DNA of 64,000 bases from positions 43,650 to 107,649 of the forward strand of contig CAUYUJ010000915.1 in the NCBI GenBank assembly GCA_963575745.1, in the 5' to 3' direction. Below, one piece after another: positions 8,807 to 62,850 of this stretch. A program made the translations under genes and the position numbers. The notes beneath the pieces are model-generated. The model was given only the letters and a program-made list of their open reading frames with translations, was not told the origin of the DNA and did no database searches. How positions within the stretch are numbered: position 1 is the stretch's first letter; every line of letters begins with the position of its first letter. The stretch comes from Prorocentrum cordatum. Lineage: Eukaryota > Sar > Dinophyceae > Prorocentrales > Prorocentraceae.

Positions 8807-10210
8807 TTTTTGCGGCTTTGCGAGGCTCCTACTGGCCCTAGGGCCACGAGCAAGCACGAGGTCAGGTGTCTTCAGGAAGCGAAAGCTCTTATTCGAACAT
8901 AAAGTCAAGACAACCCAGAAGCAGCGAAGCTGCGATGAATCATTAATCACAAATATGAGCGAAAGAGCGAAACGCACACAGAAATGAATCAAAATGCAGT
9001 CAACTAATCATGCAAGAGAAATGGAGAACTCTCAGCGAAGCTGAGTATATAATAGTCAGGGAAAGAAACAACGAATTGAGAAACTGCAACTATCAAGTCT
9101 GTGGTAACCATAGAGCTGCCTGTGGGAGCGCAGTCACGATGCACTCCAAAGCACTGAGTTCTGTATCAGTAACAGTTGTAGTTGGACAAATAAGCCAAGC
9201 CCTCTCAAAAACTGACTTCCATATCAGCTGAGCGGGGTCCCGTCGATCCCAAAACCGTGGTTTGAGGCCTATGTCTACCCAGCAACCGCACCCACATCCC
9301 TCAGACGACACGCCGCCATCGAAACCAGCCCGAATAGCAGCAGCAACGTAAAATTCTGTCTCAGAATCATGTGTAAACGGACTACATTCTGAACTAAATA
9401 TCTGGCCCTCTCGGGCCTGGTGTGTAAGGACGTCGGCTCGAGTATTCCACTCCCGAAAATCATGACGAACTAGATCCATCCCCGCCGCTGGAGGTCGTAT
9501 ATTATAGCAGCTACAAAGCCCATCAAGCGTACTGATTATTTTCGATATTCTATCAGCATATGATCTATTATCTGCACGCCACCGTCCCGTAGCCCAGCTG
9601 ACCACGAGGAGCGAGTCACCCACCACCTCCAGAGGGATTCCAGGGGCCTCCAGGTTCCAACGAGTTGCTTTCATATTATGAAGGGCAATGCGCTTTGCAA
9701 GTTTCTCAGCAGCCATCGGACTATCATCCGTGCTCACCTGAATTTCACCATGCACTGAGGGCGCCAAGTAGGCGGGCGAACTCACAGGTCCACACGTCGA
9801 CACCTCCTGGAAACATCGAAGCATGCTCTGTGTACAAAGGTGCGTGACATATTGCATAAATCCAAGCTGGGAACCTGTGAACTGAACCCACCAATCATCC
9901 CCGAAAAACTCAGCTAATGTATATTGCCATGATCTCTGGCCAATGCTTTCCGTCCCTCGACAGCGACGTTTGTAGGAAGAAGCCTCCGACCAGTTGCCAA
10001 AGTGTCTCATCGTCTCACTCATAAGTGTGCGACTGCGATCAGAGTACGGTCCAAAACACAAACACGCCATACGGGAATCGCGCCATGTCCTCTCAGCCGC
10101 CTTCAAGTCGATCACTTTCTCAACAATCATGCTATTTGCGAAACTTGCAATGTCTTTTGCGAAATTCCAGTGCAACATCAGATAACGCTGTACAAGAGAG
10201 GAGTACCCAG
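8807..10210 (-). mobile_element. 5'-truncated LINE (third LINE copy) inside a hairpin module
   Basis: On the minus strand this is the 3' part of a LINE: the post-RT region and RNase H of ORF2, about 280 bp of 3' untranslated region and an A-rich tail (AAAAACAAAGG read on minus, ending at 8801). The insertion splits a copy of the 33-bp hairpin module. The left arm is at 8783-8806 and the right arm resumes at 10211 (CCTTTG followed by ACCGCCGGGG). CCTTTG occurs at both junctions (8801-8806 and 10211-10216) and may be a short target duplication. 5' truncation is typical of target-primed reverse transcription. Its tail ends in the same CAAAGG as LINE A. Confidence 0.85.
9093..10210 (-). pseudogene. 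LINE ORF2 C-terminal remnant with permuted RNase H
   Basis: Open from about 10210 to a stop at 9093. An ORF caller would start it at 10286, but the first ~25 residues are read from flanking repeat sequence. It contains a conserved connection-like segment with FFGDDWW that also occurs in LINE B, followed by the RNase H block in permuted order. GDSLLVVSW is at about 9600-9632. A block of the form RxxFREWNTRADVLTHQAREG is at about 9400-9465. FDGGV with a following GCGCGCW glycine/cysteine stretch is at about 9290-9335. TDTELSALE is at about 9135-9170, just before the stop. EEN and RT are missing, so it cannot encode an autonomous element. The frame is intact throughout, so the insertion may be fairly recent. 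Confidence 0.8.
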
Positions 10211-10252
10211 CCTTTGATACCGCCGGGGGGACTCGTAGAGCTTCCTGACAAA
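10211..10252 (+). repeat. Left copy of ~40-bp duplication flanking LINE A
   Basis: The right arm of the hairpin module plus the start of family B (CCGGGGGGACTCGTAGAGCT and on to GACAAA). It matches 16466-16505 at the other end of LINE A with about three differences, so it behaves as an unusually long target-site duplication. Confidence 0.7.
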
Positions 10253-10316
10253 CCTTTGTTTTTTTTTGGGGAGGCTGACCAGGCACCGAGCGCCCCAGCG
10301 CCCGTTAAGTGCCTAC

Positions 10317-13300
10317 CTAGTCTCTCTGCAGCTGGAGGTCTTGGGCCACCTGGACTGCGGCCCGCAAGAGGCCCTCGAGACCCGAAAGCTCAGCGTCAGT
10401 GATACTGCTATGGGAGGGGAGTGCCTGTGCACAACGCCCTACTATTTCCCATATGATTGGACAAGGAGAGGAGGCTTGGGGGAAGAGGGAGACTACACGA
10501 GCTCTCTTATCTCTATGCTCAGGGTCAGGGTAAGGGTCATGGAATCGAGGAATATATCCAATCTGCAGAAACCAGCCAACGCCCACACCTTGGGCACACA
10601 CTCCGCCGTCGAAGGATCCGCGGAGGCCAATAACTCGAAAGTTGTCTCGGACATCAGAACGAAAGATATGGTGGTGGAACAGCTCTCTGAATATCTGGCC
10701 TTCCCGTGCTAAGTGGGTAAGTTCATCAGCTACTGTGTTACTCTCTCGATATATGTGTCGAATGAAGTCGTTGCCCCATGAGGGGGGTCGTATTCCTTCC
10801 TCCTCCAACTCTTCCAAAAGAGAAATAATATTTGCCACCCGCCTACGATAAGAAGCCCCATCTCCTCCTTCTCCTCCCTCAACCTTCCAGAGACCATTGA
10901 TCCAGTTACAGATAAGAAGCGAATCGCCCGTCAGCTCGAGACCGATCCCATCATCACTCAGATCCCAAGTCGGCTCCTGTTCATTGTTCGAGGCCAATCT
11001 CTGGGCCAGCTTCTCGGACTCCTTCGCCGACAACGGACGAGCCAACATCTCCTCCCCCCTCTCCTTTATGTAGTCTCCTCTCCCTCCAGTTCCTCCACGG
11101 ACAACAAACAAGTCAAACAGAGACCCCAAAGTACAAGCTTCCAGGAACTGCCTGCAATACTGAACGAAGTCAGAGTAAGAGAAAGAGCACGCCCTCCACC
11201 ACCGATCCTCCAGATTCACAAACGAGGGAAATATCGTCTGGAACATGAAACACCAAGGATGTTCACCCGTCGCCTGCCCCTTAGTACTGCCTAATCGTGT
11301 CAGTTTCGAGGCCTCCTTCCACTTCCACTGTGAACGCCAATATTTTGACTCCAGTGTCCTTTTCTCCTCCCACCTCGGGGTACAGCACATCAGAAGCCGG
11401 CGTGCGTCACGATGCGCACGAGGATACACCGTCTGTTGTCCAGGTCCAGGAACAGCCACCCTCCGACGTTTCGGGGGGGGCCTGGGGGAATCCCTAGGCC
11501 CCCCCCGCTCACAGGGAACTTCAACATCTCGAGAAGAAGAGGCCCTATCAGAGGGCATAGCAGAAGAGACCATCCCATGCATATCTGAAGAGACAGCGCC
11601 CATCCCATTCGTATCTGAGGAGACTGCGCCCATCCCATTAGTAACTGCAGAGACAGCACCCATCCCACTGGTAACTGAAGAGACTCCCACCATCCCATTA
11701 GTAACTGAAGAGACCACACCCATCCCACTGGTAACTGGAGAGACCATCCCATGCATATCAGAGACAGCACCCATCCCACTGGTAACTGAAGAGACTCCCA
11801 CCATCCCACCAGTAACTGAAGAGACCACATCCATCCCACTGGTAACTGGAGAGACCATCCCATGCATATCAGAAGAGACCACACCCATCCCATTCATATC
11901 TGAAGAGACTGCACCCATCCCACTAGTAACTGAAGAGACAGCCCCCATCCCATTGGTAACTGAAGAGACCTCCCCCATCCCATTGGTAACTAGAGAGCCC
12001 GCGACCATTCCTGGGCTCAGCTCCGACTCAGGAATCTGATATCCGCTGTCGACATTAGCTCCAAAATATGATGCTATGTCAGCTCCAAGCTGCCACAAGG
12101 AATAAAGAACTCTCTGCACTGCACTCTGGCACTTTGCTTCAAAGAACATCCGTCTAGCAATTCTGAGTCGAGCTGGCTTCCAAACAACCCAACTTTCGGA
12201 GGCTGGCTTTTGGGGTGACGTCATCTGGTAAAGACAATTTCCCTCAAAGACATTCAGGCTCTGCAAGGAGTCCCTGTCCCAACTAATACCTTGACTTCCA
12301 TAAATGAGAATGCTCTGAACCCGAGTGATATAACTCCTACACTTGGCCGAAAACGGGACTGCCTTTGATCTAAAATAAGCTGCATGCGCATGGAAGGCTC
12401 GTCGCGCGGCCCCGATCCGCCGCCGAAGGTCCTGGTGTGCCTCCCTATAGCTACAGTATATGCTGTTCCCCAAGACATTCATCTCATCAACTACTTTGAA
12501 CGGCACCATCTGATCCTGAACCCGAACCAGGATAGGATGTTTTGGCTTCTCCGAGAAACCGATAAACGCGACCTCGAGCGACTCGATCTTCCATTCGAAT
12601 CCCCATCCCCGCAGAGTCTCTGTCATGTCTCCTACCTGTCGCCTAAACTCCTCCTCCGAAGATCCCAAGATAAAGATGTTGTCGGCATATAGCAAGTGGT
12701 GTACAGGAACCGAGGCCGAAACTTCTCCCACCGAGTTTGGATCCAGACAATGAAACCCAATCCCCTGCTCATCCCAAAGCTTAAATAAAGGAGCCCACAT
12801 CGCAACGACTATCAGGTTCCACAAGGAGGGGCTGTCGTTCCCACCTGTCCTGATGTGGGTATCAATTCCCACATCTGGCAGCTGCAAGCCCTGGAAGAGA
12901 AGCGAAGTGACCTCGCACGGCATAGGCACGAGCACACCGTACTGGAGCCAGGGAGGGATAGAGAGGACGTCGAACGCACGTTTGACCGTCGAGATTTTCG
13001 TGTTCTGGAAAGCTTGCTTCACATCCGCTGACCCCAGAACCAGACGTCGATCCTTCCCCCACTGTGAGGCGTGTTGTGCTGCTGCCTTAAGTCCTGCAAA
13101 TATCTCGGTGCATGATCTTTTGGGAACGAAACCGAATAACGATGCATGAGTGCCAGCCTGGAGACAATATGGTTCAAGCATGATCGAGAGACAAGTACTG
13201 TACCACTTCTTAAAGATACTCTCCACAGAAATACGCCTCGTATCAGAAACATCGCATATCGGATAAGATTTGGGAAGTAGTGTCGTCAATGTTTGATGCC

Positions 13301-14837: not shown

Positions 14838-14840
14838 TCA
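14838..14840 (-). promoter_or_regulatory. Candidate readthrough stop codon (TGA) between ORF1 and ORF2
   Basis: Single in-frame TGA after CAG. The frame is open for 357 codons before and over 1500 codons after it. The endonuclease Asn and Glu motifs lie between the TGA and the first Met. LINE B has the same CAG TGA layout. Confidence 0.6.
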
Positions 14841-28995: not shown

Positions 28996-30721
28996 GGCAC
29001 TCACACAAACGAGCACACTCACATAAGCACGCACACACGAACACACATACAAACACATATACATACACAAGAACGCACACATACGCCAGCATGCTCCACA
29101 CACACGCACACATACACACACACACACACGCACACGCACACGCACACGCAACACATCCACACGCAAAGGTCGACACACACGCGCAAACGCGCACACACAA
29201 ACACACAGCACATCTCACACACACACACAGAGGGACGCGCACACGCACACGAATCACACATGCACATACAAACACGGGGGCACACACAAACACTCACACG
29301 CACACACGCACACACACACACACACACACACGCACGTACAACCCACGCACACAGACGCACACGCAAGCATCCAGGGAAACCCACGCACTGACGACCACAC
29401 GATGACGCACGCACCGCAGCCACCTCAGCGCCCCCCCCCCGCGCTCCCCTGCCGCCCCCACGCGCCCCCGCCCTCCCCGCCGGCGCTCCGGAGGGGGGAG
29501 GCACCGCCCCATTTTGGGGCCGGCCCCCCCTCCGCTCCAACCACTCCACCCTCGCGGAGCGCCGGGGGGGGGAGGGGGGAGGGGGGAGGCGCGCGGACGG
29601 CGGCACCACACCCCGCGCGCACGCGCACACGCACATGCGCAGACGAACACAGACGCAGGATAGCAAAGAGGCAATCACACAAGCAAGCACACGCACATAG
29701 GCACGCACACACGGACACACACAGACTAATACACAAGAGCACACACGTACGCCAGCATGCTCCACACATATGCGCACATACACACATACACACACACGCA
29801 CACACACATCCACACGCAAAGGTCCACACACACGCGCAAACGCGCACACACAAACACACATACATACACAAGAACACACATACGCCAGCATGCTCCACAC
29901 ACACACATACACGCACACATACACACACACGCACACACACACACACACATCCACACGCAAAGGTCTACACACACGCGCAAACGCGCACACACACACACAC
30001 ACACGAACACACAACATATCACACACACGGACACGCACACGCACGCGGATCACAAGAGTACATACACACACGGGGGGCACGGAGCGCCCCCACCCTCCCC
30101 GCCGGCGCTCCAGAGGGGGGAGGCACCGCCCCATTCTGTGGCCCGCCCTCCCTCCACTCCAACCACTCCGCCCTCGCGGAGCGCCCGAGGGGGACGAGGG
30201 GGGAGGAGGGGGCGCGCGGACGGCGGCACATGCGCAAACAAACACAGACAAAGGATAGCAAAGAGCCAATCACACACGCATGCACACGCGCATAAGCACG
30301 CACACACGTACACACACGGACAAACTCACATACATACATACACAAGAACACGCACGTACGCCAGCATGCTCTACACACACGCACACATACACACATACAC
30401 ACAAGCGCACACGTCCACACGCAAACGCACACACACTCACACACACACGCATGTGCACCCAGACACACGCAGGGGCACACACACACATACGAGACACACG
30501 CGCCCCCCCCCCACCCACCCACCCACCCACCCCCACACACACACATACACACACACGCACAAGCGCACACACAGACGCAATGGCGAACACCCACGGATAA
30601 CCACGCACAGACGACAACGTGGTGACAGACCCATTCCCCGACTGGTCAGCGCACTCTTCCACCGCGCCCCCAAGCCCCCCCCACGCGCCCCCGCCCTCCC
30701 CGCCGGCGCTCCGGAGGGGGG
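28996..30721. repeat. CA-rich higher-order repeat with foldback module
   Basis: Three ~600-bp blocks. Each begins GGATAGCAAAGAG (28983, 29657, 30251) and continues with CACAC/CGCAC runs, ACGCCAGCATGCTCCACACA (about 29083, 29751, 29884; variant at 30359) and CACACGCAAAGGTC. Each block ends in a GC-rich foldback module bounded by CCGGCGCTCCGGAG and CGGAGCGCC (29480-29590, 30095-30195; a third starts at 30705 and is cut by LINE B). The long Thr/His/Cys-rich ORFs in all frames are by-products of the dinucleotide repeat. Confidence 0.9.
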
Positions 30722-30858
30722 AGGCTTGGCTTGGCTTGGAGTCGACTGAAGCGGGCTCTCAGAGCCCAGTCGCAGTGTCCACACGGCAGCGTCAGCTGTT
30801 ACAATTCCGCCTGTACAGTATAAAGCGCGAAGCGCGTAGATATACACAAGCACAGGCA

Positions 30859-33800
30859 TCAACATGACAAGAGACGGCAAACACGCGCAAGACGAGCTGT
30901 GGCTGCAAGCAGCCGTTCCGCGGCACTCAGTTCAGCTTGAGTAACTGTGCAAGCATCGCTCAAACACCAGGCTTCTCTGTACACCTCCGTCCAAACACAG
31001 TCGTTAGTATTTGTCCGAAACCCGATATCGAGCCAACAGCCACACCCAACCCCTAAGGCCGAGACGCCACCATCCCAGGCACCCCGTATGGCAACGACAT
31101 TCATCGTGTTAGTAAATATAGAATCGTACGACTCTTTGATATAGGTTTGGCCCTCGCGGGCCTCATGTGTCAGTCTGTCAGCTCTTTCATTATTCTCCCT
31201 AAAGATATGCTTCACAATATCACGTCCCTTCATAGGTGGTCTCCCCCCCTCCTGCACACATACATTGTATAACCGATCCTGCAAATTGGCCACTCGTTTG
31301 CGATAGTCCACCTGTTCACATGCCCACACACCGTTGATCCACGACACAATCAGCAGACTATCACCGCAGATCTCCACAGGTAGTCCAGGGGTGGTAAAAT
31401 CCCAGACCGTCTCACGCATGTACGATAATGCAATCCGTTTGCTGAGTCTCAAATTCTCCTCCTCCTCCATCCTTCTTCTCTTGGGTTCCCTTTCTTCCTC
31501 CATACCTCCACTAATACCGAACTCCTCCTCCTTCTCGTAGTTGGTACCACATCCTCTCTTGTGTTCTGGCTGAAAATATTTGTGCATATGCTCGGCCGCC
31601 GTCACGACAGCCCAAGTGAAAAAGTCACTTTGAAGCATGCAGTCCCACCAGTCATCACCAAAGAACTGCTGTAGTGGGTACTGCCATGTACGCTGAGCCG
31701 TCACTTCCCTCCCCATTTTCCTCCTCCTCATATCCCCTTCCTCCCGACGAATACGTGTGGAAGCATGTGCATGGAAAAATGCGGCAGCTCGATCACGCAT
31801 GTTATCCCATTGCTTAGGGAAGGCCATCATACCAAATCTCGCATCATACCAGCAACGATCATGGCAGTTATACACAGGCACAGATTGGATAAAATTTGAC
31901 AAATCCTTGGCAACATTCCAGCATGCTAACAACAAACGCTGTGGCAGTGGCATAAAACCTGCCTCCTGAAACAATGTTCTGCATCTCCTCCTCCGGCGCA
32001 GCTCATAGTCCTGAATAGACTCCTCTGGCAGTCTCCTCGTGGCCACAATTTGAAGCAAGCATTGGCCCTCAAAGCGGTGGATGTCCTCAAGACTGCTGTC
32101 GTCCAACGTGAGATTCTCTCCTCCATACAGTACCTGTGATTGAATCCGTTCCGTATACCTCTGAAACTTAGCGTTGATAGGTACACATCTGGCCCCATAG
32201 TAAGCCTTCTGTGCATAGAAAGCCCTCCTTGCAGCATCCAGTCGATAGGCCAGATCCTCATGAGAATGTGCCCGATAGTCGGTGGTAATGAATACACCCA
32301 GCAGCACCGTAGACGTCACACGAGATAAACGAAAAGTCTGAAATTCATTGGTCGTCGATGAGATCTCAAGATTATGTGCCTGTGAGATCGTACCATCCTG
32401 TTCAGCAATAACATCCTGTCCAAATACAAGGTATTCGCCAAGCACAGGGATGGGAGTGGCATCAGCTTGAATGGGCTTCCATTCCATGCCGTGTCGCACA
32501 AGAGAGTGTGTGAGCTGCGAAAGCATCTCTGTAAGTTGTGATTCGCTTTGAGCCAGTACTACCACGTTATCGGCCCATACCATGTGGTTGACCGTATGTT
32601 GAACCGTCGTACTCCATTTTTCCCCTACAATCTCGCATCTGTAACCGTACCCCAAGACATCCCATGTATGAAACGTCGCACTCCACATGTGGGCAGCAAT
32701 AAGGTTGAAAGCCAGTGGCCCTTCTGGACCTCCAGTTCTAATATTCACATCCCAAGAGAATCCCTCAATACTCAGACCCTCACCTGTGACCTCACAACTC
32801 CCATAGAGTACAGCCTCCAGAAGGGGTATCTGAAACTGCAGAGGTACCTGACTCCATTGAAGGGCCTCACGGAGTTTCCCCACAGTGGCATGGTCGAAGG
32901 CTCTACGGATATCACAGATAGCAACGTGCAGTTGTTGATCACGCCATTTGGACGCATGTTGGCCTATATTTTTGAAGGCCGCAGTGATTTCGAAGGTCTT
33001 GCGATTGCGCTGGAATCCGTAGAGGCCCAAACGGCGTAGTACACCCGAAGACTCCACAGACTCCTCAATCATACACACAAGCGTGCTGACATACCAACGT
33101 GCAATGGCATTGAGCAAGCACAGGAACCTGCAGTCGGACATGTTACTAGTGAGGGTCTTCTTCGGCATAACACAAACAAGGATCTCACGCCAACTTTCAG
33201 GGTATGGGATCACACCCCTAAAGACCTGGTCAAAGATAGTGTGCATCTTATTCAGAGAGGCCCATGGTATTTTCTTCAATATCTCGCACGGCACACCGTC
33301 CCGTCCTGTCGCCCTGGACGATCGGAGCCGACTCCGAGCACGCAAGAACGTGCTGAAAGGCAAATTCGAGGCCGGCATCATGTTGGCCTCCCGTCGCAGC
33401 TCCTGCAACAGGCGACTGTTGGCCGAACGTGCCTCAAGAGATGAGAACTGCTCCTGACAAGTACGATGTATGATCCTCTCCCACTGCTGTCTATCCTCCG
33501 TCCCTCCCAGATTGTGTAGTGTGTTGCGTACACGTCTGCGCACGGGCGGGATCTGCCACTCCAGACGAGCACGGCGGTATTGTCTCCGCAGGGCGTTGAG
33601 CTGACGTGTCAGCTCACGCCTCTCAGGACTCTGTCCAGGCGGCAAAGCACGACGCCGTTCAAGCAACGGCTGGAGTCCTGACGGTCGAACGGGAGGTTTA
33701 CGAGCGGCATCCCTGGTCTGAAAAGCAACTCCCTGGGTAAAACTGTTCACGAGTCCAGAAGCCAAACCACGAAAGTCCCGAGGAGTACCACATCCAGGAC

Positions 33801-34863
33801 CGTCGTCGTCGCAGGTCTTTGTCTCGTAAGGTATACCATTGGGGGTCCCTTTGAGGCCCATGTCATCATCATCACCGTCACCCTGGAAATCCTGAATCCG
33901 TTCCATCATCTCATCACATTGTGTACGTGCGATGTTCTCGTCATACCATGTACTCGGCGTGTAACCTACCAACTGCACCCGTGGTCTATAACATGCGTTC
34001 CAAAATCTGTCAGGACTCCCGTGGTCTCTAGCAGAAAGAAAAAGCATCGCATGGTCAGACAAGCGGCTGGTAGCCAGCTTACCCCCTCTGTGAAACTCGT
34101 ATGATACCGTCATCTCCGCTATGTCCCAGCGAAGCGGTATACACATATAGTCGAGCACAGCGGACCTTGCTGGCACGCGCCCCCTCGCGTAGCCTGTCCA
34201 CGTCACAGACCTATCTTGAAATGTGTTGGCAGCCTTCAAACCGAACTCCATGAGCATACCTATTATCCTCCTCCTCATGTCGTTGTTGATCCTCTCCCTC
34301 TCTCTGATCTTAGTACCCTCCTCCGAATAAACCATCCTCCCATCCACACCACCACCCGTGATAGCATATCTAATACCCTTGAATTCCCCACAAGTGTTCC
34401 CAGGGAGCTCCACATTGAAATCCCCTGAGATAACCACGCTTGGAGTCCTATATTTCCCACTGCATTCTCTAATAATCCGTGTAAGTTCCGCAACCGTTTC
34501 GTCGCAAATAGTCTCAGCATCTTTAACGCTCTCATCAGGAAGATAAACGCTCGCAAAGATAATTGGGTGGTTTTTCTTGCCCAAGACAGCCACGACCAGC
34601 CTAGATTGTGTAGTGATAATGTCCCGAATCTGTCCCTTCCATTGTCCGTTCATCATAATGGCCGCCTTCCCATCCTTTGATGGGAAAACACTAAACCCCA
34701 GGCGTGTGCACTCACTAGATATCAGATGTTGTCCCTCCTGAATAGCAGCAAGGCCAACATGGGCCAGACAGTGCATTACTTCCGCCGCTCTGCAATTCTT
34801 TGCACCAGCCCTTTGACAGTTCCACGTCGCAGCATTTAATTGAAAGAACTGTCGGGCTCTCTT
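30859..34863 (-). CDS. LINE B ORF2: APE endonuclease, reverse transcriptase, permuted RNase H
   Basis: Open from just after the ORF1 TGA (34863) to 30859. The first in-frame ATG is at 34776, giving 1305 aa. The endonuclease Asn motif (NAATWNCQRAG) lies upstream of that ATG at about 34800-34835. IQEG is at about 34735, SGDFNVE at about residue 118, LDYMC near 210 and SDHAML near 240. The RT has a GRDG motif near residue 493, CDIRRAF as motif A near 625 and MVWADN as motif C near 733, with Asn in place of the last catalytic Asp. FFGDDWW lies near residue 1030. RNase H motifs follow in permuted order: GDSLLIVSW (31340-31372), RENNERADRLTHEAREG (about 31150-31205), AWDGGV (about 31060-31085) and TQAELSAAE (about 30915-30945). 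The protein ends about 25 residues later. Confidence 0.92.
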   Translation of the reverse strand, partial: KRARQFFQLNAATWNCQRAGAKNCRAAEVMHCLAHVGLAAIQEGQHLISSECTRLGFSVFPSKDGKAAIMMNGQWKGQIRDIITTQSRLVVAVLGKKNHPIIFASVYLPDESVKDAETICDETVAELTRIIRECSGKYRTPSVVISGDFNVELPGNTCGEFKGIRYAITGGGVDGRMVYSEEGTKIRERERINNDMRRRIIGMLMEFGLKAANTFQDRSVTWTGYARGRVPARSAVLDYMCIPLRWDIAEMTVSYEFHRGGKLATSRLSDHAMLFLSARDHGSPDRFWNACYRPRVQLVGYTPSTWYDENIARTQCDEMMERIQDFQGDGDDDDMGLKGTPNGIPYETKTCDDDGPGCGTPRDFRGLASGLVNSFTQGVAFQTRDAARKPPVRPSGLQPLLERRRALPPGQSPERRELTRQLNALRRQYRRARLEWQIPPVRRRVRNTLHNLGGTEDRQQWERIIHRTCQEQFSSLEARSANSRLLQELRREANMMPASNLPFSTFLRARSRLRSSRATGRDGVPCEILKKIPWASLNKMHTIFDQVFRGVIPYPESWREILVCVMPKKTLTSNMSDCRFLCLLNAIARWYVSTLVCMIEESVESSGVLRRLGLYGFQRNRKTFEITAAFKNIGQHASKWRDQQLHVAICDIRRAFDHATVGKLREALQWSQVPLQFQIPLLEAVLYGSCEVTGEGLSIEGFSWDVNIRTGGPEGPLAFNLIAAHMWSATFHTWDVLGYGYRCEIVGEKWSTTVQHTVNHMVWADNVVVLAQSESQLTEMLSQLTHSLVRHGMEWKPIQADATPIPVLGEYLVFGQDVIAEQDGTISQAHNLEISSTTNEFQTFRLSRVTSTVLLGVFITTDYRAHSHEDLAYRLDAARRAFYAQKAYYGARCVPINAKFQRYTERIQSQVLYGGENLTLDDSSLEDIHRFEGQCLLQIVATRRLPEESIQDYELRRRRRCRTLFQEAGFMPLPQRLLLACWNVAKDLSNFIQSVPVYNCHDRCWYDARFGMMAFPKQWDNMRDRAAAFFHAHASTRIRREEGDMRRRKMGREVTAQRTWQYPLQQFFGDDWWDCMLQSDFFTWAVVTAAEHMHKYFQPEHKRGCGTNYEKEEEFGISGGMEEEREPKRRRMEEEENLRLSKRIALSYMRETVWDFTTPGLPVEICGDSLLIVSWINGVWACEQVDYRKRVANLQDRLYNVCVQEGGRPPMKGRDIVKHIFRENNERADRLTHEAREGQTYIKESYDSIFTNTMNVVAIRGAWDGGVSALGVGCGCWLDIGFRTNTNDCVWTEVYREAWCLSDACTVTQAELSAAERLLAATARLARVCRLLSC

Positions 34864-34866
34864 TCA
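34864..34866 (-). promoter_or_regulatory. Candidate readthrough stop codon (TGA) between ORF1 and ORF2
   Basis: Same layout as in LINE A: CAG TGA, with no other stop in frame. 17 codons separate it from the endonuclease Asn motif and 29 from the first ORF2 Met. Confidence 0.6.
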
Positions 34867-36156
34867 CTGACGATTGTACTCCGTAAGAAATGTATCCTTT
34901 GTGATCTGCACACCGTATGTCGTCACAAGGTTCCTCCATGCATCATCCCAGAGTTGCCAGCCTGTACCTTCACGAAATTCCCCCAGAGCGAAAGGGCGTT
35001 GACCATTTACAGTACAATAGATGGTGCTGACAGGGGGGCCGATCTCAGGACGAAGTGACACCGCAGGAATCTGTGCTCGCATAACTGCCATGAATCGGCT
35101 CGTAGCTTTGACATGTGGTCTCTTCCATGGTGCACAGTCCACCGAGAAACGCAATGAAGTCGGATCTATCTGTTGGGAAAGGCCCTGGATGAGATGTTCA
35201 GGCGATGGCATCTGGATACCTGGGGGGGGAGGTGTACGATTGTGCACAGGAGTCACAACTTGATCGAGGTATTTCTTCCATCTCCAAATGATGTCTGCTT
35301 CTACTCCCCCCTTCACCGCCATCTTCATGTTACCGAACATCACCCGGCCTGAGTTGAGTCGTTCAGTCCTGTCTGAGTCGAGCAACGCCCTGTCGTCCTC
35401 ACTGAGTACGCTGGCAATATTTTTAATAATAGTCATACCATCCTCATATGTCAACATTTGTTGGTTGCGCACAGCAGGGTTACGCCAATCCTTGACCCAC
35501 CCCTTGACCTCCAGGAAAGTCGGGCGCCACATGTTACGTGCCGCCTGTTGTGCAGTCGTACCCCCCGTACCTCCGCCCGATCCTGGACCCGACGCGACCG
35601 AGGGAGCACCTCCCGCTTGAATAGACGCAACCAGGGACTCAAGTTTCGTCTGACGATCTCCTAGGTTGTCAATGGCCTTCTGTTGAACATCCATTCTGGT
35701 CGTATGTTGATCGAGGGTATGTCGAATGGCTGTCTGGTTGTCTTTGCTGGCAAACCCCATTTCAAGCAACAATCGAATACTGTCATTTTTCTCATTGGCA
35801 ATCACATTTTGTCTCCTCACCTCCTCCGCCTGTCTATCATCCTCTGATACCCGTGCACGGACAGAGCGATCATCAGGGAAAGGCACAGTTGCAGATATGT
35901 TATCCTGAGAGGACTTCACTTCTTGCAACATCTTTTTGTCAGCGCTGTACCTACTGAGCCACTGTGTGTCAGTGACTTCCTGAACACCGTACCTGTTGAG
36001 CCACTGTGTGTCGGTGACCTCTGATTGTCTGGACCGTCGCTTATTGAGTTGCCGAAAGTCGTATCCCGCCGTTGTTACAAGAAGAGATAGCAACAATGTG
36101 TCCGTCAGACGAAAGGATGTGCAATGGGCGAACAGTGTGTCCGTCAGACCAGACAA
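34864..36156 (-). CDS. LINE B ORF1 protein
   Basis: 430 aa from ATG at 36156 to TGA at 34864-34866. The first ~90 residues include a duplicated VTDTQWLxRY segment and several LTDTL-type repeats, which come from the tandem repeat around 35950-36260, so the true start could be downstream. Residues about 120-190 (RRQNVIANEKNDSIRLLLE onward) look like a coiled coil and resemble LINE A ORF1 in position and pattern. A Gly/Thr-rich linker follows, then a C-terminal region with RFMAVMR and a Trp-rich end. The stop context is CGT CAG TGA AAG AGA. ORF2 continues in the same frame. RNA chaperone function is inferred from position only. Confidence 0.8.
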   Translation of the reverse strand: MSGLTDTLFAHCTSFRLTDTLLLSLLVTTAGYDFRQLNKRRSRQSEVTDTQWLNRYGVQEVTDTQWLSRYSADKKMLQEVKSSQDNISATVPFPDDRSVRARVSEDDRQAEEVRRQNVIANEKNDSIRLLLEMGFASKDNQTAIRHTLDQHTTRMDVQQKAIDNLGDRQTKLESLVASIQAGGAPSVASGPGSGGGTGGTTAQQAARNMWRPTFLEVKGWVKDWRNPAVRNQQMLTYEDGMTIIKNIASVLSEDDRALLDSDRTERLNSGRVMFGNMKMAVKGGVEADIIWRWKKYLDQVVTPVHNRTPPPPGIQMPSPEHLIQGLSQQIDPTSLRFSVDCAPWKRPHVKATSRFMAVMRAQIPAVSLRPEIGPPVSTIYCTVNGQRPFALGEFREGTGWQLWDDAWRNLVTTYGVQITKDTFLTEYNRQ

Positions 36157-36260
36157 TGTGCAGCGTCAGAACAATGTGTCCGTCAGAACAATGTGTCCGT
36201 CAGATGAGACAAGAAGCAATTGCAACAATGCGTCCGTCAGAAAGTGTGACCGTCAGACCC
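36097..36260 (-). repeat. Short tandem repeat in LINE B 5' region
   Basis: At least six copies of TGTGTCCGTCAGA-like units with variable spacers (ACAATG, GACAAG). They overlap the annotated start of ORF1. Confidence 0.85.
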
Positions 36261-37337: not shown

Positions 37338-39479
37338 TCAGAGAGCCGCGTCCGACACCGCCACGATCGTTGGCTCGTCATCTCCACCCCCGCGCAGGCG
37401 GCGCAACGTCTGTCGCAGCCTCTCCTCAGGCCACTTGCCAATGCCGACGGGCACGTCCAGCCGACGCACTACGAGAGCTCCAACGACTTCTCCGATCAAG
37501 TCCCGCCGCTGGTTGTGCTCGGCGATGGCCAGGCGCTGCCGCCTCTCTTCAGGATCCTCCTGCCGCGCGCGATCCTCCGCAGCAGCGGCGGCGATATCCC
37601 GCGTGCTCGCGCGGCTGCCACGCTCCCCGCGCTCACCGCCCGACGACAGGGCCGAGGCCGCACTGGGCGCGCCAGCCCCTCCAGCACCGTCGCCGCCCCC
37701 TGTCGGCGCCCTCGCGGCGACGCCATCGCTGGCGGGCACCCTGGCGGATCGCCCCTCCGCGGGCCCCCCCGCGGGCGCGCCACTCGCGCCAGCCTCGGCC
37801 GCGGGCGCCGCGCGCGGGGCCTTGCCTGCATGCCCTCCCTCCGGAGCCGCCTCTACACGCGCCGCACCCCCCCGCCCGCTTCCGCTGGCAGACCCAGAGC
37901 CTGCTCGCGTGACGACCGCGGCCCGCCCCGCGCCCTCGCCAATCGCGCCAGCCTCGGCCGCGGGCGCCGCCGTGCCTGCCTGCTTATTCCTGAACGCCTT
38001 CAACTTTCTCTCCGGGATGGGCCCGTCCACACGCCCATGCCAACCATCTCTGTGTTGCTGCTGGAAATGCTGCCCGCAGAAATCCCCGCATCCCTGCTTT
38101 GGCGCGCTCCGGCATTGTCCGCCAGCTCCGTTCGCCCAGGTACGAGCCATGCACTTAGCGGTGTCAATGTTTTCTGGCGTAAAGCGACGCCATTCGTCCC
38201 CCGCGAGCGACGCCCCCGCGCCTGGCTGGACTCCAGCAGGCACCTGGTCCGCGGACGAAACGCCAGCGGCCCTGCCAGCGTCGTCGTCCTCGTCGCCCGC
38301 GCGGCCCGGAGCTGGCGGCGACAGCCCGCGCTTCTTGCCCCTGCGCGATGGCGGCTGCGGCTGCCCCGAAGCGCCAGGGTCCCCGTCGCCAGCGCCAGGA
38401 TCCCCGCCACCCGCCCGACGCCGCTTGCCCGGTGGCTCGCCCCCCGACGCCAGCTGCCCGGCGGGCGCACTCGGCGGCGCAGACGGCGCGGCAGTGGCGC
38501 TGGAAGCAGCGCCGCCGCAGCTGCTTCCGCTCCCCGCAGACCCCGCCGCGCGCCCGCCTGCATGCCCGAGAGGCGCAGTCGGCGGAGCCGGCGGCGCACC
38601 AGACGGTCCCGCACCAGCGCTGCCGCTGGCGCCCCCCGCAGACCCCGCCGCCGCGCGCCCGCCGCCTCCGCCCCGCGGACCCGCCCTGCGCACATACGCA
38701 AACACATAGGCGCCAATGTGCACCTGGTGGTTTCCGGCGATCTGCGCCCAAGTCTGGAGCTGGACAGTACTGTCGTCGAATTTGGCGTATTCGTTCACGC
38801 CCACGGATGCATACGCATAATAGTGTCCGCTTGTCGCGCGCTCGCCCTGGTGCACCACGACCCCCGAGAAATCGTACTCGCACTCGGCATCCACAGGCCG
38901 CAGAATCTGAGGAAAGCGCACAGGGCGTCTGTCGTACCACTGGCCTATCACCCGCTCCACGATCACGAAGAGCACCGGCGGCGACCGCTCCCAGCGATTG
39001 CCTGTATATACCCTGATGCCTTGACAGACCCCGGCCGCCGCCCTCTGAGCATCATCGAGGTGAGCGTGCGCCGGACATCCTTGCCCTGGCTCACCGACAT
39101 GCCTTAATCCCAGCCGGATCAAGTCCTCCAGATCGCACGGCCCCCGGTGGTCGGGGCCGAGCAATTCGGAAGGCACCACCTTCAGAAACGTCTTAATTTC
39201 CCCCTTATCCGAACTTGCTGTGCACGCGGCGCATCGCCTCCGCTGCCGAAACGCAATGCCGCAGACGTGCTGCTGGAGCACACTGCGCTGCCCGTGAGGC
39301 CCCCTTGCGGTACAAACGGGGTGTTCGGTCTCGGTAACGGCATGCTCTGCGCGAAACGCAATGCCAGACGTGCTGCTGGAGCACACTGCGCTGCCCGTGA
39401 CCCCCTTGCGGTACAAACGGGGTGTTCGGTCTCGGTAACGGCATGGAGGGCGGCCAGGAAGAACTCTGACGCGTCGCAT
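37338..39479 (-). CDS. Ubiquitin-specific-protease-like C-terminal segment plus Cys/His module (Helitron-region 3' ORF)
   Basis: 713-aa open frame. The N-terminal ~75 residues are encoded by a tandem duplication (39249-39440). At about residues 115-260 the pattern matches the C-terminal half of a USP/UCH (C19) domain: a run of beta-strand-like segments, then SGHYYAYASVG (about 38810-38840), then FDDSTV and AYVFAYVRR. The Cys-box half (NxGNTCYxN) is absent, so it is a fragment or uses a Cys from elsewhere. A low-complexity Gly/Ala linker leads to a Cys/His module (CMARTWANG to FCGQH, then HGRVDGPIP) at about 38005-38155. A related Cys/His pattern occurs upstream at about 46665-46780. The end (37338-37500) is a short charged domain. 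Whether this is part of the same gene as the Rep frame is an inference from strand and contiguity. Confidence 0.55.
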   Translation of the reverse strand: MRRVRVLPGRPPCRYRDRTPRLYRKGVTGSAVCSSSTSGIAFRAEHAVTETEHPVCTARGPHGQRSVLQQHVCGIAFRQRRRCAACTASSDKGEIKTFLKVVPSELLGPDHRGPCDLEDLIRLGLRHVGEPGQGCPAHAHLDDAQRAAAGVCQGIRVYTGNRWERSPPVLFVIVERVIGQWYDRRPVRFPQILRPVDAECEYDFSGVVVHQGERATSGHYYAYASVGVNEYAKFDDSTVQLQTWAQIAGNHQVHIGAYVFAYVRRAGPRGGGGGRAAAGSAGGASGSAGAGPSGAPPAPPTAPLGHAGGRAAGSAGSGSSCGGAASSATAAPSAPPSAPAGQLASGGEPPGKRRRAGGGDPGAGDGDPGASGQPQPPSRRGKKRGLSPPAPGRAGDEDDDAGRAAGVSSADQVPAGVQPGAGASLAGDEWRRFTPENIDTAKCMARTWANGAGGQCRSAPKQGCGDFCGQHFQQQHRDGWHGRVDGPIPERKLKAFRNKQAGTAAPAAEAGAIGEGAGRAAVVTRAGSGSASGSGRGGAARVEAAPEGGHAGKAPRAAPAAEAGASGAPAGGPAEGRSARVPASDGVAARAPTGGGDGAGGAGAPSAASALSSGGERGERGSRASTRDIAAAAAEDRARQEDPEERRQRLAIAEHNQRRDLIGEVVGALVVRRLDVPVGIGKWPEERLRQTLRRLRGGGDDEPTIVAVSDAAL

Positions 39480-42400
39480 TGCTTCGGTCTCCCTTGCTGA
39501 TCGAATTCTGTGAATTCTCGCTCACCAAAAAGCCCCGCGCGCGCGGCGACTGCCAGCGGCGCGTCGGTGTCGACCCCCTCGCCCTGGACAGAGAGAGCCG
39601 TGGCCTGAGCTCCAAGCGCGCACGCCGCGCAAGATGCTGCGTTCGCGGCCGACCAGGCGCGAGCACGGCAGGCGCCGAACCCGCGAGGCCGCTCCGCCCG
39701 TCGCCATCCCCAGACAAGACCTCAGCTCCCTTTTTCCTGTATCGGAACGCCTCCTTCTGCTGTGCTTTGCCCACCTCGAACTGAGAGTCGTCCAACTCGA
39801 GACCGCCGAAGCCAGTCTGCCCTCCACTACTCGCGGCAGCAGGCTGCGGCTTATGGTCTTTCGCATAGCCGTCCAGGAAGATATTCTTATAGACCAAGCT
39901 TTGTGAGGACCCACGAATTCCCTCCAACTGGGCCACCGCGGGCACCTCGCTATCCTTCACGAGGTGCGCGGGCCTCTGTCGGTGCGCCGCCCACGCTTCG
40001 TCCGCCTCTGCCTCGTCCACCTCCTGAGCAAAACCATCCAACGCTCCGCCGCCGGCGCCCGCCCCCTCCTCCTCGTCCGCCTCCCCGGCAGGCCGATTCC
40101 CCACTGCCTCCAGCTCAGCAGACTGCTCGAAGTCCTTGGCCTCCGGACGGATCTTGGTTCGCGGCCGCCCTTTCGCCTCCGCCTCCACGTCGAGGTTCGT
40201 CGCGACCTGGACGGTCCAGCGTGCCATGAACTCGGCGGCGCTGGGTTGCTGTGCAAAATGGCCTGGGCCTTCCTCTGAGCCCCGTTTCAGATCGATGTCC
40301 TCGATCGTGAACCACTTTCCGGCTCGCCGCTCGCACTCCTCGCACTGCCCGGACAACGCCACCTGCTTCGCCCACCACTCCTCCCAGGCAGGCTGATGCT
40401 TCCCGGACGCGTCGACACCGGCCCTGTAGGGCGCCCAGGCGGCAGCCCCCTTCTCAGCCGGCTGCAACGGACGGAAAATCACAGACTTGAACAGCGCGTT
40501 GACCTCTGCCTCTTTCTCCTTCGAAGGCATCGTGAAGCCGAAGAACTTGGGCACCCTGAACGGCGCGCCGACGCGGAGCTTCTGCACTCTGGAGGCGGCG
40601 GCCGGGTGCGTGTCCGCGAACGCGTACGTCTCGAAGTCCTGCGGGTCGAAGTGGAGCGGGTTGGCCTGTGCTGTGTACACGTACATGGCGTAATGGTACA
40701 TGCCCATGGACTTCAGGGGCTCCCTGTCGCCGCGATGCAGCCAGTCCATCTTCATGTCATGGTCCAGCCGCGCGCTGTATTCGACAGCCTGCTGCTGCTC
40801 CTGCTCGGGCTGCCCCCCCCCAGCAGCACCGGCAGCCGCGCCCTCCCCGACAACGCCGTCGGCGACACGGGCGTGCAGCGTTGCGCGCCCCTCGTCCAGC
40901 GCATCCATGACACCGCCGCCCCCCTCGCCGTCCTCTTCCCCCGCGGCCGGCTGGTCCACCTCGATGTGGTCTGCGCGCGGGTCGGTCCAGAAGTCGTCCT
41001 TTTTCTGCTGAGCGGCGGAGCTCGCCTGGAGCGCCAGCGCCACGATCCCCTTGCAATACAGAGTCCAGGTGTCATGGGAGCAATAGCACTCGTGGCCATA
41101 CTGCATCTGAAACATCATCTCGGGCAGCTTCTTCAGGAGCGCCCGGTGCGAGCTGGTCGTGAGCTTGATGACAGTTCGCCTGGCAGAGTCGAGCACTCCG
41201 CCCCAGCCGCTGCGACGAGCGGCAGCAGCGGCCCGGGCCCCGTCGACGTCCTCCTCGCCCTCCGCCTCCGCCGCCTCATCCGCCTCCCGCTCCGCCTTCT
41301 GCTGGAGTCGGAGCCACTCCAACCCGGTGCTCTGCGCGTGCAGCACTCCGAGGTCGCCCGCGATCGGCCCCGCCTTGGTCGTGTAGTCCGTCTGGTAGTG
41401 CGCCATATTGATGGCGTCCATGAACACGGCCTCCAGCGAGTGCAACACGTGCTCCCTCAGGCTGCCGGGCGGACCGCTGCCGCTCGCGCCAGCAGCTGCG
41501 GCGGCGCCGGGCGACGGGGGCGCGCTCGATGCAGAGCTGCCAGACGCCGCGCTCGATGCGGCGCGGCCTGGCGCCCGCGACTTCGGCTCTGCCTCGACGG
41601 CTGATTCTGACAGCTCGCGCTCCGCGCGCCGGTCGCTGTAGTAGCTCAGGCCCTGCTTCCCCTTCTTGAACACGAACCCCGGCCGGCTGCCGTCGTAACA
41701 CGAAGCCGCGCTGAACTCTGGTGGCCCGACTGCCTGCTCGACGCCGCGCTGTTCTGGCGTCGGCGGAGGCGGCGGATCCAGGCCATACGCATCGGCCAAA
41801 TCCCACGGCTCGTCATCCTCTTCTCTGAAGCCCCAGATATCCCCCGCGTTGGGATCGTCCATCGTGGTCGGCGCCCCGCCGAGCAAACCTCCTCCCCTGG
41901 GCAGGCCGAGGCGGCGCCCCACGGGCACGCGCCCGCCCCCCGCCGCAGCCGCGCGCGCTGACCCCTCGCCCGCTCCGCCCCCGCCGCGCGTTGCGGCCGA
42001 CACCCCTGAACACGTGAAACCTCCGCTCTGCCCGGTGCCCTCGTCGCAACCGGTGCCGCCAGTCTCGGCGCCAGCCAGCGCCTCCGACGCGTCGCCGACA
42101 GGCTCGGCGAACGCACCGGGCTCCGGAGGCGGCGGCACGACCGGGTCGCCGTCGGCCGCGGGCGCGCTCCCGACGCTGTCGTCGCCGGGCAGGTCGAGCA
42201 CCACGCGGTCCAGACACTGGACGTCCAGGTTGCTCCGCAGACACACCTGGCCCACAGGGTTCGTGCTCCCGTGGTACGGGTGGTACCGCACCACGTCGAC
42301 GCGACCAGCTCTGCCGTACCGGTTGCAGCGGTGCGGCCACGGGCCGTAGCCTTCAGCCGGAACGTCGTCCAGATCCAGGTGCTCGCCAGGCGGGTTCCAC

Positions 42401-45115
42401 TGCCCCTCCTCCAACGGACCGCACGCGTACTGAACCTTCGCATCTTCCGGAAGCACCAAATCCTTCCCCTTGCGCAGGCGCCGCCAGACGAAGGAGGCCG
42501 CCGGACGCGTCCTGGACGGGTGGCTGTACACCGCAGTCTCGTACTCGTGGTAGAAGCCGAGCCGGCACACCTTGCAGTCCTGAGGCACGTCGTCGTTCGT
42601 CTTGTGCTTCCAGCACGTGGGACCGCACCTGTGCAGGTGGCTCCGGATGATACACTTGCGCGCGTCCCGCGCGAAGCAGCGCGCCCAGGTGTGCGCCTCC
42701 TCCCCCGGGCCCTCCGCAAAACGCATGGCCGCGGCGCCGTCCGCTTGCACCACGCGGTACGCAGGCTTGCGGCGGTACTGCGGCTGCAGCGTCACGTGCG
42801 CACCCGTGAGAGGCTCGGCAAATACCGCCGGGCACTGTGCCCCCTGCTCATGGGGATCGGGCTCTGGATCTGCCAGCGGCGCGAAGGGGCGCTGCCGGAG
42901 CGGACCCTCCATTGAGGGCTGCTGCTGCAGCATCGCCCGCTCCTCTGCGAGATCGACGTTCATCATGGCGGCAACCTGATTCCGCAGCTCTTCTGTGGAC
43001 AATTTGTTGTCAGCACGAACGGCGCGGCGCCCCGCGTCGTACGCCTTCTTGCAAAACTTCCCGAGCTGACGACGCGAGGCGCCAGCGATGGCATTGTCCT
43101 TCAATTGGAGGTCGCTCTTCTCTCGCTTCCCGTCCGCGAACGCGCAAGTTCGATCCCGCGGGCCGAGCGGGAGCGGCGGCAGCCGGTCCGATCCGTGCAA
43201 GCCCAGCTGCCGGCCCACCTCCTCCGCCGCGTCGAACTGCACGCTGCCGACCCTGGCGAGCACGGCCTCCCTCCACTTCCTCAGACGCCCCTCGAGGCCT
43301 TCGACGTCCCCCGCGCGCAGCCTCGCGAGGAACGCGCCAGTCATCGGGTGCAGGCGCCACAGGTGGATGTGCGGATGGATGCCGCCGCGCCCCTGCGACT
43401 CCACGGGTCCGAAGAACGCGCGGACGAGCCCGAACGCTCCACACGCCCCCGTGGCGGCCACGCCGTCGGAGACGCCCGTGGCCCCGCGCTGCGGCGTGAC
43501 GCCGACGACATGCTCCAGGAACAGTTCCAGCATGAGGTTCGTGACCATGGCCTGCGACACCGGGTCAGCGGCCACCCGCCGCAGCATGTCCCGCGTCGAG
43601 GGCATCACGGGAGCAGTCTCCTCCAGCAGCCGCCATTGCTGTACGGAGGCGCCCTCGTACATCAGGGACACCATCAGGTTCCGAGTGTCCGCGATGTTCG
43701 GCGTCGTGAACACCAGGGGCGGCCCGAAGAGCCGGGTGTAGCTGGTACTGATGTGCCGCAGCGCGGTCCGGTGCGCGTCGGAGCCGACGACATCGCGGTT
43801 GCTGAGCAGCATGCTGCGCAGCGCGCTCTTGACGTTCCGGGGCACGCCCTCGAGGCCCAGGGCCTGCTTGATGCCCGCCCCCCTGCCGAGCACGGCCACG
43901 ACCTGCGCCAGATCCTCTGGCGTCAGTGCGGCGAGGTCCGCGATGCTTTCCCCCAGGCGCTGCTTGCGCACGAATAACCTGGCCGACTGAATGATAGCAT
44001 TTCTGCGCCAGAGGCAATACTGGGCCGTGAGCAGGTCAGCGTGGCGACGCCAGCGCGGCACGGGCGAATCAGACGCGACAGGCGCCCGTGCAGCGTCGGG
44101 CGCGGGCGCCCGCGCAGCGTCGGGCGCCGAGACGTCGTCGGGGACCTCGTACTCGAGCTCCTCGCGAGCCACGAGGCACCTGCACCACTCGTCGTACGTC
44201 AACTTCGCCTCCCTCTCGAGTCCGAAGACGCCGTCGCCGTACGGAAACGCGACGGGGTCGAAGGCACTCCAGAAACCGGGGGAGAACATGCTGACAGGCT
44301 CGGTTCCAGTGGGCACGACGACCCACACCGCGCGCCTCGCCGGCCCGCCCTCAGCGCCCCCGGCCGGCGCGCCGCCGCCGCCGCCGCCGCCGCTGGCCGC
44401 GCGCTTCCCGGCAACTCCCGGAGGAGGCCGCGTGGCCTGAATCTTCTGCTCCGTCTGCTCCAGCTTCTTCGTGAGTGCCTCCTTCTTGCAGTTGGTGAGC
44501 GCCTTCGCAGCCTTGTGGGCCTCTTTCGCGGCCTCCGCCAAGCGCTGGTCGGAATCTCGGTCCTGGAAATTCTCCATGCCGTCGAACTGCCGCGTCAGTG
44601 CCTCCACACGCCGCTTCTCGCGCGCAATCACCTCCGCCTTCTGGAGGCTGAGGTGCACGTTCTGCCACTGCTTGTCCAGGTTGGCCAGCATGTCGGCGTC
44701 CGCGACGGCGGCGCAGTACTCGCCCTCTTCGACACCCTCGCCGCCCTCTCCCTCACCAGCCTTGCCCTCGTCGCCCTCTGAGTCCTCCCCGCCAGCGCCA
44801 GCAGCGTCCTCACCGGCGGGGTCCCCGCCCCCGCCCCCTGCCTCGCCCCCGCCGTTTGCCGCCGCGTTCGCTTCGCCCTCCGCGCTCGAGCCCGCGCCGG
44901 GCTGCACGGCATCGGCCGGGCCCTCCTGGCGAGCGTCGCCGCCCTTACCCCCCACGGCCACGCACGCCGCGAGACAGCGAGGCAGGCCCAGGAGCGAGGA
45001 GCTGTCGCCATCGCCGTCGCCCTCGGGGTCCGCAAAGTTCTGCGCGGCCTCTTCGTCCCACCGCACCGCGGCGTACTGCTCGTTCGCGTCGCGGAGGTAC
45101 TCGTAAGCGCGTGAA
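39205..45115 (-). CDS. Helitron-like Rep (HUH) protein segment
   Basis: The useful part of a 2118-aa frame, from about 45115 downward. It opens with an acidic low-complexity region, then a long helical section. The Rep core has GGIHPHIHLW (about 43350-43385), the HUH metal motif of rolling-circle nucleases, preceded by FFGPVESQGRG. Downstream is a Cys/His block (RCGPTCWKH, then CKVCRLGFYH, about 42540-42640), HGSTNPVGQVCLRSNLDVQ (about 42230-42270), DYTTKAGPIAG (about 41350-41385), YGHECYCSHDTW and FFGFTMPSKEKEAEVNALF (about 40500-40555). Their order resembles Helitron replication initiators. No Walker A (GxxGxGKS/T) follows, so the Pif1-like helicase normally fused to Rep is missing or lies outside. 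Catalytic tyrosines were not assigned. Frame is entered by a +1 shift near 45110. The last ~110 residues, to 39205, come from the duplication. Confidence 0.75.
39249..39440. repeat. ~107-bp tandem duplication
   Basis: Two copies of a unit starting CGCAATGCC and containing GACGTGCTGCTGGAGCACAC and GGTACAAACGGGGTGTTCGG, with few differences. It sits at the junction between the Rep frame and the USP-like frame and changes the reading frame there. Confidence 0.9.
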
Positions 45116-61800: not shown

Positions 61801-62850
61801 CAGGCGGAGGGGCCGCCGCGGCCTTGGAGCGGAGGGCCAGGGGCGGCGCACGCTTGGCGGCGGGGGGAGCCGAACCAGCGCTGGCAGCGACAGGGTCGGG
61901 GCCGTGCGAGCCGCCCGCCGAGGACGCAGACGCTTTGGGCGTGGCGTCTGCTGTGGATGTGAGACGCCGGTCGCAGTCAGCGAAGAGCGCGTTGCGAGGC
62001 CCGCGACGCTCTCCGCTGGCGAGAGCAGCTTCGCTGACGCTCTCGGCGGCGCCCGAGGGGTCGAGGGCTTCGCCCTGGGCGCCGTCGCCGGCGGCGTCGG
62101 CGGCCATGCCCGCACCCACCGGGAGGGGGGGGGCGGCCGCCCAACGGTGGCTGAGCAACCCCTCGGGGCCTCGAGCCACAAGCTGCGCAACAAATCGGCC
62201 CCAGAGACAGGTAGGGAATGGCGAGCGAGAGTCGGCGTACGCGATGCAATCAAAGCGCGTAAATTCTCCTCTCTCGGCTTCCACTAACCAGGCGGGAGGG
62301 TCACGGGACGGGGGCCTCACCGCGCGGTTGCGCGTGGGATCGTCGGCCCTATGCACGTCCGTGGGCACGTACATGCCTCCCATATATAAACCTCCTCCTA
62401 TCACATAGGGCAATGTGGTCGAGAGAACATGAGATAGACCAGGAGAGCTGCTGCGCCCGTGCGCGGTCGCGCCCAAAGCCACTTTTGAATCCAGGAGAAC
62501 GGGGATCCGAGAGTCAGGGAGGCGAACACAGCAGTATTTGCACAGACTCTTATACACTGTTGTCTCAAGGATGTTGATGTGACGAGGCATGCAGAACTCC
62601 CATTTGTACGCGAGCCGAAAGCGCAGCGCCTCTGATAGCTCGGTGACCCAACGCGGCGCGACGGGGGGCTCAATAGAAGGGAGCCCCAGGTCGTGATGCA
62701 GTTGGGTGAGCTCAGGGCCCAAGGGCACGCCGCGGCTGAGCACGGCGAGGAGGCTCCGATTGTGCAGAATCGTGTGCCACCCCCCGTGCTCCGATCTGCG
62801 CCACAGCTCGGCGGAGAGCTGCGGGCTGATAGGAGCGCGGACAACGCCCC
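58883..62850 (-). CDS. Polyprotein: RNase H, J domain, basic Ser/Arg region, C-terminal domain
   Basis: Meaningful part of a 1420-aa frame, entered from the RT frame at a six-G run (62847-62852). RNase H in the usual order: the catalytic TDAS is in the RT frame just before the shift, then ILETTVYKSLC (about 62555-62580), LLDSKVALGATAHG (about 62450-62495) and PTDVHRADDPTRN (about 62320-62370). A J-domain-like segment follows at about 61500-61700: LLGVVEGASRSTIEAAFRRQ, then the invariant HPD in VYHPDRT at 61611-61622. A long Ala/Arg/Ser/Pro-rich region with SRSR-type repeats (about 60100-60550) may bind nucleic acid. The C-terminal ~200 residues (ALAWRLNLGGEKITVVRW onward) look globular and may be gag-like. 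This frame stops at 58883; a more natural continuation (AMLAEASGFETDGRDALVPP) runs in another frame to a TGA at 58839. Confidence 0.75.

Follow-up and report, generated by a model that had tools for sequence, protein, structure and literature searches.

A circularly permuted archaeal-type RNase HI domain predicted at the C-terminus of LINE ORF2 proteins in Prorocentrum cordatum

Introduction

Canonical RNase HI presents its four catalytic acids in the order Asp (β1), Glu (αA), Asp (β4) and Asp (αE), and the RNase H domains of other long interspersed nuclear elements (LINEs) are thought to remove template RNA from the RNA/cDNA hybrid. Here we describe, in a 64,000-nucleotide stretch of the Prorocentrum cordatum genome (contig CAUYUJ010000915.1; hereafter the window, meaning the whole stretch analysed), an element, LINE B, whose second open reading frame (ORF2) ends in a domain that very probably carries the two halves of this fold in reverse order. 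The closest described elements are LINEs of plants and oomycetes (Ta11, L1-type), which likewise bear an archaeal-type RNase HI (aRNH), a type distinguished in the main text of PMC5348765 by the replacement of the active-site histidine with arginine. A survey of the RNase H-like superfamily places the LINE RNases H in one cluster, E.7 (PMC3985635, main text). Neither main text contains a word beginning ‘permut’.

The passages with such words in PMC2628886, PMC5408684, PMC7824862 and PMC4686048 do not concern an RNase H, and the permuted proteins treated in passages of PMC3578095 are likewise other proteins. In our searches of the open-licence PMC literature we found no description of a natural permuted RNase H.

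The best profile matches of the LINE B family are the archaeal-type enzymes (LC11-RNase H1, 3u3g; Sulfolobus tokodaii, 3aly/2ehg; Halobacterium, 4e19). Common to both are the GDS strand, the RExNxRADxL helix and the RExN arginine, and the DGG strand and AEL helix are shared by profile and motif. The halves, however, are swapped in the LINE family, where the domain begins at β4 and ends after αA. With its arginine the domain is, as judged from sequence, of the archaeal type.

Results

The RNase HI motifs of LINE B stand in permuted order

Translated, the C-terminus of LINE B ORF2 reads GDSLLIVSW (from residue 1167), HIFRENNERADRLTHEAREG, IRGAWDGGVSALGVGCGCW, TQAELSAAERLL and then the stop, with the β4-αE half ahead of the β1-αA half. 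This is the motif order, at the same coordinates, that an initial annotation of the window had claimed; the annotation put the stop about 25 residues past the last motif, and it lies 23 residues past the Glu of AEL. All four acidic motifs are present, as the annotation also held, in D1168, D1229, D1264 and E1311, which we take to be the equivalents of D70, D134, D10 and E48 of E. coli RNase HI. The features are as follows (secondary-structure labels are our own).

30859..34863, minus strand: LINE B ORF2 (P0001), 1334 amino acids, open from stop to stop, with an EEP endonuclease-like region, a reverse transcriptase (RT) and the putative permuted RNase H
31417..31488, minus strand: extra helix ahead of the GDS strand (model residues 32-55), without an invariant acid
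31102..31416, minus strand: RNase H second half, from the GDS strand to the RExNxxAD helix (β4-αB-αD-β5-αE), residues 1150-1254
30862..31101, minus strand: RNase H first half, three strands from DGG and then the AEL helix (β1-β2-β3-αA), residues 1255-1334, with the stop codon directly after
31360..31362, minus strand: catalytic Asp of GDS, residue 1168, invariant and aligned to the canonical profile
31177..31179, minus strand: catalytic Asp of RExNxxAD, residue 1229, invariant and aligned to the canonical profile
31072..31074, minus strand: catalytic Asp of DGG, residue 1264, invariant and aligned to the canonical profile
30931..30933, minus strand: catalytic Glu of AEL, residue 1311, invariant and aligned to the canonical profile

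The catalytic residues are conserved in both halves

Two alignments of the family (A3, 11 rows; A6, 12 rows) show no variation at the GDS Asp, the NxxAD Asn and Asp, the DGG Asp, the AEL Glu or the RExN arginine. The four acids stand, in the β1, αA, β4 and αE contexts of RNase HI, both invariant and aligned to the canonical profile. Every row of both alignments has the permuted order, and because the canonical β1-β2-β3-αA-β4 order is absent from all of them we file the family as a permuted RNase HI variant and not as an ordinary member. A larger set of 69 rows consists mostly of near-identical copies, so that its rows are not independent; 68 of them (66 of 67 distinct places or proteins) have the complete tetrad. 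A pattern scan for the tetrad passed 63 of the 69, and reading by eye rescued five of the other six (L004, L053, L061, L063 and L069, the last with CDS for GDS), leaving L065, which reads GNS, as the sole row without the full set. The C-terminal ends of the 11 A3 proteins all fall 21-27 residues past the catalytic Glu, as expected if αA is the last helix.

Between LINE B and a copy 89% identical to it, the ratio of nonsynonymous to synonymous substitution rates (dN/dS) was 0.129 over the whole domain and 0.279 over the first half, the two spans that the values for this pair cover. Three pairs from the family of a third window element (P0005, below) gave 0.10-0.17 for the second half and 0.11-0.55, on 1-6 nonsynonymous changes, for the first. 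Taken with the invariant acids, these ratios fit a working domain whose first half is under weaker constraint. The divergence of the first half and the weaker constraint on it would also suit a domain that folds in the same permuted way but has lost catalysis and binds nucleic acid or has a structural function within ORF2; since the tetrad is invariant in the alignments and kept in all but one of the distinct places checked, we regard this as improbable. Synonymous divergence itself falls toward the 3′ end of ORF2 when 9096-10304 is compared with L087 and L088 (0.25, 0.19, 0.05 in one pair), as constraint on, or conversion of, the RNA end would produce.

Both halves align to canonical RNase H in a profile comparison

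Searched with HMMER, the GDS-AD half matched Thermoproteota RNase HI in six of eight members (best 4.9e-6), RVT_3 in four of eight (best 4.6e-7) and PDB 3u3g at an E of 9.7e-4, and in the full L075 ORF, from a further subfamily, RVT_3 rose over its cut-off (23.8 against 21.6 bits). RNases H of ordinary D-E-D-D order and the same catalytic motifs (PF00075, PF13456) exist elsewhere in the same genome, some of them in retroelement frames (L031, L035, L086), and these canonical-order domains served as our internal control; the DIRS-like control in the window (P0006) was read by eye. L086 belongs to another element, one that begins EEP-like and has a canonical RVT_3 RNase H; most of the RT is apparently deleted in this copy.

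We built the canonical profile from ten RVT_3 domains of this genome (L076-L085) and left L002 and P0014 (near-duplicates) and P0017 (partial) out of the family profile. Compared by hhalign, the native profile gave two complementary matches, the second half to canonical positions 73-132 with a score of 61.5 and the first half to 4-56 with 27.5. The re-permuted profile gave a single match over 8-132 with a score of 78.5, in which DGG, AEL, GDS and NxxAD each fall on their canonical counterpart. The initial annotation's expectation that the re-permuted sequence should score higher is thus borne out at the profile-profile level. A broader template raised the scores to 69.9 (native) and 85.0 (re-permuted), and a control version in which the half-alignments were squeezed and then joined gave 59.8 and 77.9, or 71.1 and 87.6 with the broader template.

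To these matches we compared 300 column shuffles of the first half. Scored alone, the shuffled first half reached at most 20.3 against 28.9 observed, and in the joined profile the shuffles reached at most 69.5 and 82.5, none attaining 77.9 and 87.6. An earlier comparison, against 20 canonical domains of which many are near-identical, scored 42.0 and 46.4, with the second half aligned in both orders and a weak separate match for AEL in the native order; the best alignment with this narrow set was the second half alone, and a more diverse one was needed. Against solved RNase HI structures, no more than complementary halves aligned, at low Z; in the VIA listing the RNase HI rows each cover one half and run from rank 27 down, and a family may be missing from that listing without being excluded by it.

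Predicted models place the elements of one RNase HI fold in permuted order

The structure prediction that the initial annotation had proposed as a check yielded two AlphaFold2 models (predicted local distance difference test score, pLDDT, 83.6 and 82.7; predicted template modelling score, pTM, 0.77 and 0.75, single chain). Both contain the elements of the RNase HI fold in the order β4-helix-helix-β5-αE-β1-β2-β3-αA, and both model the DGG/AEL block as three strands followed by a helix.

In each model a further helix, less confidently predicted, precedes the GDS strand. A hidden AEL-like helix in this place was a case that the initial annotation had named as fatal to its claim. Read so, the domain would be a canonical RNase H in disguise, with a degenerate αA, with β1-β3 lost, and with an unrelated DGG/AEL block at the C-terminus. 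In L075 the Pfam RVT_3 alignment (profile 25-123) does run upstream over the extra helix, an exception that suits such a reading. The helix, however, has no invariant acid in either alignment, adding it leaves the start of the profile alignment at template 73/75, outside the canonical αA, and the DGG/AEL block both matches canonical β1-αA beyond all 300 shuffles and is modelled as the three strands and helix expected of that region. We therefore rejected the upstream helix as αA, the profile alignment not being extended upstream of β4, and give the disguise almost no credence. Our guess is that the helix may be left over from the αA of an initial RNase H copy, in keeping with a tandem duplication and loss of the outer halves.

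That same guess would lend itself to another reading, in which the region is the remnant of two tandem RNase H domains and its halves, coming from different copies, are not one active unit, or complement each other in trans between two ORF2 molecules by a domain swap. Permutations usually arise through a tandem intermediate. Catalytic residues invariant in both halves across subfamilies, and pTM values of this size for one chain, argue against it, and we hold it to be very unlikely, although some pairing in trans may occur.

Two points weigh against a single permuted domain. The convergence of the four acids in three dimensions is inferred, and re-permuting gains almost nothing in HMMER against Pfam, NCBIfam and PDB. 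RVT_3 scores are equal in native and re-permuted order because HMMER detects the GDS-AD half alone, the DGG-AEL half being too divergent, so that this comparison is uninformative; PF00075 matched none of the three window elements in either order. The initial annotation's forecast for the Pfam RNase_H profile therefore failed, which we think reflects a want of sensitivity.

The best explanation, in our view by a high degree of confidence, is that the C-terminus of these LINE ORF2s is a single archaeal-type RNase HI domain, circularly permuted at the αA/β4 loop. The permutation rests on the motif order, its conservation, the predicted order of secondary structure, the profile homology of both halves and its recurrence in divergent families.

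The permuted order recurs in the window, the genome and protein databases

The initial annotation placed the permutation in LINE B, where it stands; it is also found in two further elements of the window in which it had gone unnoticed. These are 43% (P0002) and 44% (P0005) identical to LINE B over the domain, and both end in the same order.

10320..10979, minus strand: LINE A (P0002) permuted RNase H, second half 10641-10979 and first half 10320-10640, at the end of the 1506-amino-acid ORF 10317-14837
9096..9671, minus strand: permuted RNase H of the third element (P0005), a 5′-truncated copy, second half 9351-9671 and first half 9096-9350, in ORF 9093-10304

We searched the genome from which the window comes (4.13 Gb, 21,875 contigs). 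The copy counts are lower bounds, as scoring was confined to the best candidates, and part of the identical copies may have arisen as duplicates in the assembly. For LINE B, the best 150 of 5626 candidates included 61 full-length copies at 89% identity or more, 13 of them with an open frame of 1334 amino acids; among the remaining 89 rows, 61 stand at 46-47% identity, many with a 1244-amino-acid frame, and represent a fourth subfamily (L075) with the same permuted order. For LINE A, 78 of the best 150 of 5184 candidates share the top score, with 100% identity over the domain. The P0005 family has at least 103 scored among 5818 candidates, at 91-100% identity, and a 1329-amino-acid frame in at least 40 of its rows, two of which have a stop inside the match. 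The 13 open LINE B frames and the 78 identical LINE A rows exclude an assembly slip as the cause of the order. GDS is absent from every frame of the 600 bases that follow the stop in the three window elements; the looser pattern [GAE]D[SN] has a single match, in one frame after P0005.

A database of 5.8 billion proteins was searched twice by profile, with the 7996 candidates sharing most words scored each time; the searches gave six and seven matches, nine different proteins in all (P0009-P0017), on short contigs. Eight of these (P0009-P0016) have the whole permuted order, and P0017 begins within the second half. A single-sequence query of the same database with residues 1030-1334 of LINE B ORF2 returned nothing at E <= 0.001, and 13 motif-pattern matches in viral contigs included no relative. 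Recurrence of the order in P0002, P0005, L075 and P0009-P0016 shows that it is not due to chance. P0009 and P0012 have best matches of 53% and 80% identity in the P. cordatum genome and so are not copies from it; judged from these proteins, the permuted order is old relative to the subfamilies and very likely present in other organisms. Genome searches with P0009 and P0012 matched further frames end to end over the domain. Those of 1319 amino acids, 53% identical to P0009, and those of 1412 amino acids, 40-41% identical to P0012, are likely additional subfamilies of this clade, and a set of mostly broken copies, 69-80% identical to P0012, is likely an older one.

Remaining features of the elements and the window

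Over the curated Pfam cut-offs, the full LINE A and LINE B ORFs are labelled as RT only. RVT_1 passes its cut-off in P0001, P0002 and L075, and with a long ORF2 and many copies the elements class as LINEs, putatively of the APE type. Ahead of the RT, QE and SDH motifs of a putative EEP (APE-like) endonuclease are seen, with Pfam matches below cut-off (0.026, 0.019, 1e-4).

34051..34842 (approximate), minus strand: LINE B EEP-type endonuclease region, QEG and SDH by motif reading, Pfam match below cut-off
32479..33165, minus strand: LINE B reverse transcriptase, Pfam RVT_1 over cut-off, residues 567-795, motif C WADN
32566-32577: LINE B RT motif C; in LINE A at residues 717-720, in L075 at 706-709 and in L002 at 298-301 of its frame
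34864..36165, minus strand: LINE B candidate ORF1, in the same frame as ORF2 with one TGA between

In the four permuted-RNase-H subfamilies examined, RT motif C reads WADN or YADN instead of ADD; the canonical-order L031 and L035 frames have YVDD. The candidate ORF1 of LINE B matches no Pfam family at E <= 1. The two full-length elements each have ORF1 and ORF2 in one frame, with a single TGA after CAG between them (34864-34866; 14838-14840), where read-through or reinitiation is possible. The 3′ end of LINE A directly adjoins the 5′-truncated P0005-family copy (about 10215-10317), and the 3′ tails of both have an A-run and then CAAAGG. Elsewhere in the window, long overlapping frames on both strands at 29019-30749 are TG/CA-rich simple repeats and not genes, and by eye the frames at 39205-45750 look Helitron-helicase-like and those at 58883-63283 DIRS-like.

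Discussion

Our results point to a naturally circularly permuted RNase HI in an amplified LINE clade of several subfamilies, with a domain that, on sequence grounds, is probably active. Its catalysis, its role in the cycle and its origin are things we infer. The chain would enter from the RT side at β4 (GDS), pass through two helices, β5 and αE (RExNxxAD), and after a linker of about 18-19 residues continue into β1 (DGG), β2, β3 and αA (AEL), where it ends. The halves would come together in the ordinary RNase H fold, gathering the four acids to bind two metal ions, and by analogy with other LINEs the domain would most likely cleave the RNA strand of the RNA/cDNA hybrid once target-primed reverse transcription has taken place. 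The tether would differ from the usual one, the chain arriving from the RT at β4 and not at β1, with the helix of the catalytic Glu at the extreme end of ORF2. Such a domain may have originated when an RNase H domain was duplicated in tandem and the outer halves were then lost. We consider it likely that the permutation was fixed once, in an ancestor of the clade, that at least four subfamilies in this genome and relatives elsewhere inherited it, and that the domain has stayed active enough for recent mass amplification.

Although the RNase H fold is among the best studied, profile libraries of fixed order miss or truncate a permuted RNase H, and a permuted copy may be present in LINEs of large protist genomes that are annotated as lacking the domain. 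Amplified LINEs of this kind offer a natural test of how far the fold can be permuted and of the coupling between RT and RNase H during target-primed reverse transcription. If our reading is true, the RNase H fold tolerates natural re-wiring at αA/β4, and in these elements the tether between RT and RNase H would have shifted to a different face of the enzyme.
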